Positions 23,245-27,720 of a stretch of DNA of 64,000 bases are shown one piece after another (position 1 is the stretch's first letter; each line of letters starts with the position of its first letter). Origin of the DNA: Sporosarcina sp. Marseille-Q4063 (GTDB lineage: Bacteria; Bacillota; Bacilli; Bacillales_A; Planococcaceae); NCBI RefSeq assembly GCF_018309085.1, contig NZ_CP070502.1, positions 3,529,001 through 3,593,000 of the forward strand. Direction: 5' to 3'. A model generated the notes under the pieces. That model was not told the DNA's origin. It saw nothing but the letters and a program-made list of their open reading frames with translations, and did no database searches. The translations under genes and the position numbers were made by a program.

Positions 23245-23275
23245 AAACCCCTTTCCATATCGGAAAGGGGTTTTT
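23245..23275 (+). terminator. Terminator of lcfB
   Basis: AAACCCCTTTCC (23245-23256) / GGAAAGGGGTTT (23262-23273) with following T residues. The A-run on the left could also help end the minus-strand cotG-like gene. Confidence 0.9.
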
Positions 23276-23288
23276 GTTTGCAAACATT

Positions 23289-23846
23289 TTAAAACAAAAA
23301 TTTGTTCCAATTCATTGATTTCCGGCCAGTTCGCTTTTGATTATAAGAGGTTTGTCTTCTTCTACCTGTTAGTCTTTGGTTATTGAAATTGCGTCGATTT
23401 CTACTTGTGTGCTTTGGGTTACGCGAAGTGCGACGGATTCTACTTGTGCGCCGAATGTTACGTGAAGTACGTTTTTTTCGACTCGTACGTTGCTGGTTTT
23501 CACTAATTTCCGGACACCATGGACGACTGATTCCTGAACGCCTTACTTTACTTGTACTCCATACATTTCTTGAAGTCTGTCGCACTTTGTTCGTGGTCCA
23601 TAGATTTTTTGAAGTTCCTTGAACTCTGCTTGTGCGCTTAATATTTCTTGAAGTTCCTCGAACTCTACTTGTGCGACGAATATTTTTTGAAGTCCCTCGC
23701 ACCCTGCTTGTACCCTGTATATTTCTTGAAGTGCGTTTAACTCTCCGTTCGTTACTGAATGGATCTTGGTGCATAAAATCTCCTAATCCAGATCTATTAA
23801 CACTTTCAACCGCTTTTCTAATATGATCTATAGAAAAACCTGACAT
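23289..23846 (-). CDS. CotG-like spore coat protein with 13-residue Arg/Ser/Thr repeats
   Basis: From the ATG at 23846 (GGAGGT ends 6 bp before it) the protein is 185 residues. Residues 1-35 (MSGFSIDHIRKAVESV... DFMHQDPF) resemble the conserved N-terminus of B. subtilis CotG, with the same spacing of the AV-S helix and the D-[FY]-x-x-Q-[DE]-P motif. Residues 36-100 are five unbroken 13-residue units of the form VxGTSxNIxxTSR, followed by a 19-residue interruption and about four looser units to 175. The protein is extremely basic and rich in Ser/Thr, like CotG, which is phosphorylated by CotH in B. subtilis. cotH lies divergently 198 bp away, as expected for this pair. Sequence identity to CotG is low outside the N-terminus, so the call rests on layout, composition and locus. 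Confidence 0.75.
   Translation of the reverse strand: MSGFSIDHIRKAVESVNRSGLGDFMHQDPFSNERRVKRTSRNIQGTSRVRGTSKNIRRTSRVRGTSRNIKRTSRVQGTSKNLWTTNKVRQTSRNVWSTSKVRRSGISRPWCPEISENQQRTSRKKRTSRNIRRTSRIRRTSRNPKHTSRNRRNFNNQRLTGRRRQTSYNQKRTGRKSMNWNKFLF
23322..23741 (-). repeat. 39-bp tandem coding repeats of the cotG-like gene
   Basis: The region encodes residues 36-175. Units of 39 bp (13 codons) encode VxGTSxNIxxTSR-type blocks: five regular units, then an interruption (residues 101-119), then degenerate ones. Length variation between strains would be expected. Confidence 0.75.
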
Positions 23847-24044
23847 ATCCATACCTCCATACTTTTTTGAATTAGGACAATAAGTGGACGAAAATTCCAC
23901 CCCCGTCCTATTAAGGTACGTAACTATTCGCTCGGTGTCGGAGACAAATGCATACTTTTATTAAATAAATAATAACTATCATGTAGAGACAAGAAATGTT
24001 TTTAGGCAATAGCTATACAATAAAACAAAGGGAGTGGGAATAGC

Positions 24045-25124
24045 GTGGTGATACCCGAATATAAACTTTTCATTCATCCGATAGATGTTAATGAACTTAG
24101 AAAAGATATTTGGCGTGATGATCCGGTTTCAGCAAAATTAACGATTAACCAAAAAAAGTTGGATGTCGATATCGCTTATCGTGGTTCTCATATTCGGGAT
24201 TTCAAGAAAAAATCTTATCACCTTTCTTTCTACAAACCGATAACATTTAGAAAGGCAAAAGAAATTCATCTTAACGCGGAATATAAAGATCCATCATTAC
24301 TAAGAAATAAATTGTCATTTGATTTTTTTAATGATATTGGCTGTTTATCGCCTAAATCACAGTTTGTATTTTTAAAACTTAACGGTAAAAATGAAGGGAT
24401 TTATTTAGAAATAGAGTCAGTAGATGAATATTTCCTATCGAATCGGCAATTGCCAAAAGGGTCGATATTTTATGCGGTTGACGGGGATGCTAATTTTTCA
24501 TTGATGAGCGACCTCGATAAAGACGTCAAGAAATCCCTTGAATTTGGTTATGAATTCAAATTTGGGACAGAAGAAGATGAGTACCATTTACAAGAAATGA
24601 TATTGAATATTAATACGTTTTCTCTTAATGAATTTGAAAATGAAATCGTTAACTATGTAAATGTTGATAAATACTTTCGTTGGCTCGCTGGCGTTATTTT
24701 CACGCAAAACTTTGATGGATTTGTTCATAACTATGCATTGTATCGAAACGCGACAACAGGGTTAGTCGAAGTCATCCCGTGGGATTACGACGCGACATGG
24801 GGAAGAGACGTGAATGGAAAAGTTATGCGAGAAGATTATTTGCGCATTCAAGGCTTTAATACGCTGACTGCTAGGTTGTTGAATGTAACAAGATTTCGCC
24901 TTCAATACAAAAAAATGTTGGAAGATATTTTAACTAGCAAATTCAATGTGGATTATATGAAACCTAAAATACAAGATTTATATGATTTAATCAGACCCTA
25001 TATTCTAAAAGATCCATATGAGATGGACAATGTCCACGAATTCGATCAAGAACCAGATTATATATGCAATTATATTAAAGCGCGTGGAGAATATATAAGA
25101 AAGCAGTTATATACACTTGATTAA
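24045..25124 (+). CDS. cotH: Spore coat protein kinase CotH
   Basis: CotH is an atypical protein kinase of the spore coat that phosphorylates CotB and CotG in B. subtilis and directs outer-coat assembly. The 359-residue protein is close to the usual length (362) and carries the family landmarks: [20 protein letters not shown] (about 46-65, with ATP-site basic residues), [49 protein letters not shown] and the metal-binding [17 protein letters not shown] at 24045 follows GGGAG by about 10 bp. Possible sporulation -10 sequences upstream (TATACAAT, 24013-24020, near the sigma-E form CATACAAT) lack a clear -35. Its partner is the divergent cotG-like gene. Confidence 0.93.
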
Positions 25125-27340: not shown

Positions 27341-27374
27341 AGCGGCTGAACACGTCTGTTCAGATTACGCCGCT
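27341..27374. other. Nested inverted repeat at the 3' end of the small minus-strand gene
   Basis: AGCGGC-TGAAC (27341-27351) faces GTTCA...GCCGCT (27358-27362, 27369-27374). It overlaps the last codons of the gene at 27365-27676. There is no T-run, so I do not call it an intrinsic terminator. Confidence 0.4.
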
Positions 27375-27676
27375 CCATATCCATTGCCATTTCTAAGGTC
27401 GATACCTAGCTCGATTTTTTCAACGACTCGTTTTTCGATACAACAGATTTGGTCTAGTACTCTTGCAACAGCATTATTAATCTCAGCTAATTGGGCAGGA
27501 CTTGCTGTATCAATCGCAGCTCTAATTTTGTCTCCCTCTGCGAAAAGAATGTCTGCAAGTGCGAATTCCGTGAATACAGCGGAAAAGATAACTAATCCAC
27601 CCAAGAAATCGTCTCCATTGTCACCATTTAAACTCATTAAATTTTGCATTTGTGCAAATGCTTGTTTTTGGTCCAT
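27365..27676 (-). CDS. Small protein, probably sporulation-expressed, function unknown
   Basis: From the ATG at 27676 (GGAGGTGA 7 bp upstream) the product is 103 residues, beginning MDQKQAFAQMQNLMSL. It is largely helical and amphipathic: a hydrophobic middle (FLGGLVIFSAVFTEFALADI), then a helix (AQLAEINNAVARVLDQICCIEKRVVEKIEL) and a short glycine-rich tail ending NGNGYGAA. The hydrophobic stretch is too polar for a confident membrane segment. I do not recognise the family. A sporulation-type -10 box 45 bp upstream and coat genes 3 kb away suggest a spore protein; that is inference. Confidence 0.7.
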   Translation of the reverse strand: MDQKQAFAQMQNLMSLNGDNGDDFLGGLVIFSAVFTEFALADILFAEGDKIRAAIDTASPAQLAEINNAVARVLDQICCIEKRVVEKIELGIDLRNGNGYGAA

Positions 27677-27720
27677 TAATATCACCTCCTATCTGGTCTT
27701 TCTACTTGTCCGAACATACT

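Follow-up and report, generated by a model that had tools for sequence, protein, structure and literature searches.

A CotG-like/cotH gene pair with a diverged 13-residue repeat in Sporosarcina sp. Marseille-Q4063

In Bacillus subtilis the kinase CotH is reported to phosphorylate serines in the repeats of the spore coat proteins CotG and CotB (PMC7821199). CotG is described as aggregating when unphosphorylated, deletion of its repeats as lowering permeability, the repeats of another species as largely tolerated, and its termini are proposed to bind CotB (PMC7821199; PMC9765600). Related proteins include ExsB of the Bacillus cereus group, which has phosphorylated threonines in its central repeats and a different role, in exosporium attachment (PMC7821199), and the modular CotG-like proteins found in other Bacilli (Saggese et al. 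2016, via PMC9765600), which likewise lie beside cotH and have species-rewritten repeats but are described as lacking homologous primary sequence. Here we analyze a divergent pair consisting of a cotG-like gene and cotH in a 64,000-nucleotide stretch of Sporosarcina sp. Marseille-Q4063 DNA (the window; G000:C1:3529001-3593000 of a genome that is one contig of 3.98 Mb). The observation itself, a CotG-like/cotH pair with a highly diverged repeat, is confirmed, and the pair is very probably the Sporosarcina form of the CotG-CotH module, with phosphorylation of the CotG-like protein predicted.

The original prediction held that the 185-residue product of the divergent gene has a CotG-like N-terminus, and a profile search indeed finds this relation. 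The NCBIfam family NF047410 (CotG_ExsB_Nterm), which names ExsB as well, matches residues 5-29 at 40.9 bits (curated cut-off 28; E 1.3e-10) over profile positions 2-26 of 26, and in a genome-wide search the gene is the sole match at E up to 1 (E 1.6e-10). Pfam gives no match to the protein. Of 1479 candidates, a plain protein search with the full sequence retrieved seven at E up to 1, all unnamed; such a search is blunted because the repeats are composition-rich, and genomes were therefore searched with the domain instead. The window N-terminus aligns without gaps with that of Bacillus CotG, and the equivalent of Ser15, a reported phosphosite of B. subtilis CotG (PMC4130616), is also a serine, as it is in 14 of 56 CotG-like proteins (all 11 from Bacillus, the window's and two others). 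Moreover, a profile made only from Bacillus N-termini matches 45 of 45 non-Bacillus CotG-like proteins, 11 at E<0.01 and 7 at E>1; none of 900 shuffles is matched at E up to 10. AlphaFold2 (13 sequences) predicts helices at residues 6-19 and 21-25, with a block-mean predicted local distance difference test score (pLDDT) of 74-76 for residues 1-20, and no secondary structure beyond them (mean 50.2). Block means are 39-50 across the repeat region, a predicted disorder that agrees with the one described for the repeats of CotG (PMC7821199, section 2.1).

The repeat unit is 13 residues long and divides into 7+6 (TSRNIKR+TSRVQG). Seven units are clean, and residues 104-126, between two clean runs, are irregular. 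The tandem register proposed from the sequence is borne out by a lag-13 identity of 0.42 after residue 30, a value reached by 0 of 10,000 residue shuffles (highest 0.22). In the DNA, Tandem Repeats Finder detects no more than 3.3 copies of a 39-bp unit (81%), and the repeat is thus highly diverged, as had also been proposed. Residues 31-185 are basic, with 50 K/R/H against 3 D/E, and include 40 S/T. Over the seven aligned units the proportions of synonymous (pS) and nonsynonymous (pN) differences in the coding frame are 0.58 and 0.26, and the resulting pN/pS of 0.45 is lower than in the other five registers (0.59-1.37); since unit pairs are not independent, this ratio is descriptive and carries no probability. 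As in CotG of the B. subtilis group, a homologous N-terminal domain is followed by a basic Ser/Thr repeat of 7+6 and a Trp near the C-terminus, with a predicted helix and then disorder, all encoded divergently from cotH. The letters differ: the window has TSRNIxR/TSRVxG where CotG has SHKKSYC/SHKKSR, with two adjacent hydroxyl residues and with Arg and Asn in place of Lys and His, and its repeats are typed Thr-Ser-Arg (TSR), not the Ser-His-Lys-Lys (SHKK) of B. subtilis CotG. A further difference is that no cotB-like gene was seen beside the window's cotG-like gene.

The identification of the neighboring kinase gene as cotH holds. Its product matches PF08757 at 295.1 bits (cut-off 23.8; E 1e-87) and, over residues 1-358 of 358, the solved structure 5jd9 of spore coat protein H (E 9.9e-148). 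The loose motif DG..HN...PWDYD fits all 57 CotH proteins compared, whereas a stricter initial motif fitted 39 of the 57. By their spacing of 23 alone, Asp 223 and Asp 246 (numbered from 24048) would correspond to D228 and D251 in the B. subtilis CotH numbering of PMC7821199. The window CotH is intact and full length with its motif residues kept, and kinase activity is predicted.

The two genes occur together across relatives, where the original prediction had asked whether a divergent repeat-rich gene accompanies cotH. With NF047410 accepted at E up to 0.001 and a close CotH defined by 65% identity or more, the domain is found in 27 of 68 genomes of the genus (close CotH in 28 of 68) and in 40 of 261 genomes of the family, all 40 of them among the 41 that have a close CotH. 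In the 41st (G004) the cotG-like gene lies below threshold and was read from the DNA. None of the 220 family genomes without a close CotH has the domain; 18 of these have CotH only in a more distant form. In 39 of the 40 NF047410 loci fetched, CotH is on the opposite strand within the flank, and in the 40th (G020) it is just beyond the fetched flank with a short CotG-like gene between. The spacing is wider in seven loci (G020, G021, G022, G035, G036a, G037 and G038). The gaps, read in all of these but G021, contain a short CotG-like gene in G020, G035 and G038 and a 137-residue one in G036, and no CotG-like gene of 70 residues or more in G022 and G037. The pairing has one exception, a copy among three in G144 (C4) with no CotH listed on its contig. 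No listed NF047410 match contains an internal stop, and in relatives the gene is present and unbroken beside cotH. In the class, NF047410 is found in 13 of 398 genomes, with a copy adjacent and opposite to CotH in 12; G324 and G410 have an additional copy away from CotH, and the thirteenth, G272, lacks a CotH hit and matches the domain only weakly and in part. At three loci (L087, L088 and L091) a short CotG-like gene lies between cotH and the repeat-rich CotG-like gene; at about 70 residues from a Met-Ser start, with the anchor and hardly any repeats, it is a natural repeat-poor version. A second cotG/cotH pair at L117 (G010 contig 25) has a kinase copy with internal stops and an open cotG-like frame.

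The register of the repeat is more widely shared than its letters. The strongest lag is 13, 26 or 39 in 47 of 56 CotG-like proteins (paralogues included), SHKK and TSR types alike, and most Bacillus SHKK repeats have the 13-residue register in common with the TSR repeats. The exceptions are G027, with no clear repeat, G057, G035, B. siamensis and B. velezensis (6), L007 (7), G127 (24), G221 (14) and G139 (9). By type thresholds that we set ourselves, 52 cotG/cotH pairs comprise 27 TSR, 12 Cys-rich, 10 SHKK (all Bacillus) and 3 other; these pairs omit five of the 57 CotH rows (Salirhabdus, G217b and three CotH2). TSR is the commonest type outside Bacillus, with 27 of 42 typed pairs, and is therefore not an oddity of the window genome. 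The view of the locus as a rewritten CotG/CotH pair thus stands for the CotG relation and the adjacent CotH, and not for a spelling specific to this genome; the window gene is new only as a member, and its repeat is clade-typical. At least seven type changes fall on the CotH tree, a quickly built tree in which 18 of 53 inner branches are open. The earlier interpretation is supported, and rewriting of CotG repeats from species to species has already been described in general in PMC9765600, where the SHKK sequence is said not to be a feature of the wider CotG-like family.

The CotG domain, the 13-residue register, the adjacent CotH and the strict co-occurrence together argue for a CotG with rewritten repeats, and the window pair has the parts required for the B. 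subtilis mechanism. By analogy with B. subtilis, both proteins would be made by the mother cell late in sporulation, and the short N-terminal helix and the C-terminus would dock the CotG-like protein to coat partners. CotH would then phosphorylate Ser/Thr of the TSR units and offset their positive charge, and the protein, prevented from aggregating, would assemble as an outer-coat spacer. If regularly spaced Ser/Thr among basic residues nearly suffices, the repeat letters would be free to drift or be replaced. The second CotH of the same genome, which likewise adjoins a Ser/Thr repeat gene, counts for the module reading.

The strongest competing explanation is that the CotG-like protein is a passive basic spacer or a polyanion-binding coat protein that neighbors cotH without being its substrate. 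B. subtilis CotG with less charged swapped repeats is reported to assemble with no need of phosphorylation (PMC9765600), and a CotG-kind repeat protein can thus work unphosphorylated. We nevertheless regard this explanation as improbable given the strict co-occurrence with a close CotH across the 261 family genomes, the retention of Ser/Thr in the repeat types seen and the reported phosphorylation of B. subtilis CotG by CotH (PMC7821199). Convergence, with an independent origin of the repeat gene beside cotH and no more than a likeness to CotG, is more improbable still: for the window gene it is largely refuted by the NF047410 match and by the breadth of the Bacillus-only profile, to which the CotG-like gene position and 13-residue register add. 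A spurious open frame or a decaying gene, suggested because many relatives have more regular repeats (lag-13 identity up to 0.84), has next to no probability and is refuted by the pN/pS minimum in the coding frame, the ribosome site and the stop-free NF047410 matches. On the CotG-CotH reading, Sporosarcina and its family join the range of the bacterial spore-coat kinase-substrate module that has been studied best. The reading also offers a naturally occurring series of substrates with rewritten repeats, all accompanied by one conserved kinase, with which one can ask whether CotH recognizes spacing, charge or sequence, and whether the family is defined by the N-terminal anchor and not by the repeats.

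Resemblance at the N-terminus extends beyond NF047410. Of 25 CotH loci drawn from the class search, 14 show a hydrophilic frame with strong periodicity next to cotH, compared with 0 of 14 control window segments, and eight of these 14 loci, selected by repeats only, are in genomes without an NF047410 match (one, L144, was hand-cut at an inner start). A profile-profile comparison of these eight with 18 CotG-like N-termini gives a probability of 93.7% (E 1.8e-7, 30 columns), while the best of 100 column-shuffle controls reaches 4.7%. A single-sequence profile search of CotG N-termini against 14 proteins without the NCBIfam CotG domain is weak: four of the 14 beat all 200 shuffles and four have no score at all. 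Of the two comparisons of the N-terminal sequences, only the profile-profile one is convincing. NCBIfam and Pfam searches with seven of the eight proteins (L143 excluded) give no NF047410 match over cut-off; L148 scores 13.2 bits and also exceeds the cut-offs for HxsA4 and collagen, matches driven by its repeats. The pattern [FYLIMW][LMIF]xx[DEN]P, composed after the sequences had been viewed, is present in 8 of 8 repeat-chosen proteins and 7 of 116 control frames. Divergent frames at 45 CotH loci contain the N-terminal pattern in 19 cases, 13 of them without NF047410 (12 from the class search and Salirhabdus L016). Among the 26 pattern-negative loci, L153 and L155 carry NF047410, L141 and L161 seem to come close to the pattern, and the rest, which include every one of the 14 loci whose CotH is most distant (L164-L177), show none; the anchor claim is therefore limited to part of the CotH loci.

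For the N-terminus, this result argues otherwise than the non-homology in primary sequence stated in PMC9765600, as the eight such genes studied here appear to have an anchor in common. On balance, we lean towards a single ancestor for the repeat genes divergent from cotH in Bacilli, those called non-homologous among them, with an anchor joined to a replaceable Ser/Thr cassette. An anchor of ~30 residues (a helix, then [FY][LM]xx[DEN]P) would, somewhat more plausibly than the contrary, dock the substrate, with kinase and anchor staying. Repeated swapping of the cassettes (TSR, SHKK, TGRR, KSSGKH, GSGRKG, SKG and even an acidic one) is a fairly probable part of the same history. In the close-CotH group the 13-residue register mostly outlives a change of letters, and overall the repeats look replaceable and the anchor conserved. 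The anchor shared beyond NF047410 is the most novel part of this analysis: among the titles and abstract openings listed for CotG, CotG-like proteins and ExsB, none describes one, and Saggese et al. 2016 may discuss N-termini; our literature search returned no paper linking CotG with Sporosarcina. The result may also help to name repeat genes beside cotH that family libraries miss. At locus L163 the divergent gene beside cotH has an anchor-like start, and its Ser-Gly-Asp repeat is acidic where that of CotG is basic.

The features of the locus are listed in the table. The cotG-like gene and cotH are divergent on opposite strands, with starts ~200 bp apart. The GGAGG sits 7 bases before the cotG-like ATG at 23846, and an alternative upstream GTG would extend the protein by 18 residues. 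Terminator-like stems in the region number three, against 1.4 expected.

Table. Features of the cotG-like/cotH locus, in window positions
Feature	Position	Strand	Basis
CotG-like coat protein gene, 185 aa, ATG start	23289..23846	(-)	open frame, NF047410 over cut-off, coding-frame pN/pS 0.45
N-terminal anchor (CotG_ExsB_Nterm), residues 5-29	23760..23834	(-)	NF047410 at G000:C1:3552760-3552834; predicted helices
13-residue (7+6) TSR repeat region, residues 39-152	23391..23732	(-)	lag-13 autocorrelation, seven units, low pLDDT
C-terminal WNKFLF, counterpart of relatives' WNDLLF	23292..23309	(-)	alignment and relatives
Shine-Dalgarno GGAGG	23854..23858	(-)	read from sequence
Sigma-K-like promoter GACA-N15-CGTACCTTA for cotG-like gene	23912..23939	(-)	one mismatch to CATANNNTA
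cotH kinase gene, GTG 24045 or 24048	24045..25124	(+)	PF08757, 5jd9, loose motif
Terminator-like stem between upstream AMP-binding ligase gene and cotG-like 3' end	23245..23273	(+)	stem search

The promoter-like site upstream of the cotG-like gene is labeled by what we take to be the sigma-K consensus. Over 40 loci (L060 omitted from the 41), a relaxed pattern (C[AG]TA), picked after sites had been seen, is found upstream of the cotG-like gene in 24, against 0.3 expected from shuffles, and the strict pattern in 7, against 0.2 expected, the window not included. No sigma-K-like site lies close to cotH at any of the 40 loci. Relaxed matches within 1500 nt of cotH number 12 of 40, against 3.9 expected (at most 11 in 60 shuffles), and are too weak to use; the window has no sigma-K-like cotH site within this distance, a further difference from the B. 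subtilis group. As a positive control, the relaxed pattern recovers the distal site of cotH at 8 of 9 Bacillus loci, consistent with the 812-nt distance given in PMC3785510, and no cotG-side site in any of the nine.

Elsewhere in the window, a 106-aa frame at 27365-27685 (-) has no Pfam or NCBIfam match. Outside it, the same genome has a second cotH, 49% identical (L094:1509-6463; G000:C1 about 1813500-1818500). The genes opposite this second cotH are presumably CotB-like, as judged from a motif; one of them has a 33% match beside B. siamensis cotH and none in two other Bacillus loci. Upstream of the second cotH is a small gene (MPKKGKKAR...) that encodes Thr/Ser-Gly pentamer repeats. This TTG-repeat gene has no family match over cut-off, and a protein search with it gives nothing at E up to 0.01. 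Eight of the ten CotH2 loci of the genus have a Thr/Ser-Gly repeat gene; G029 has two Ser-rich genes instead, and a composition filter found no such repeat gene at the G053 locus. The repeat gene beside the second cotH is a candidate second kinase substrate.
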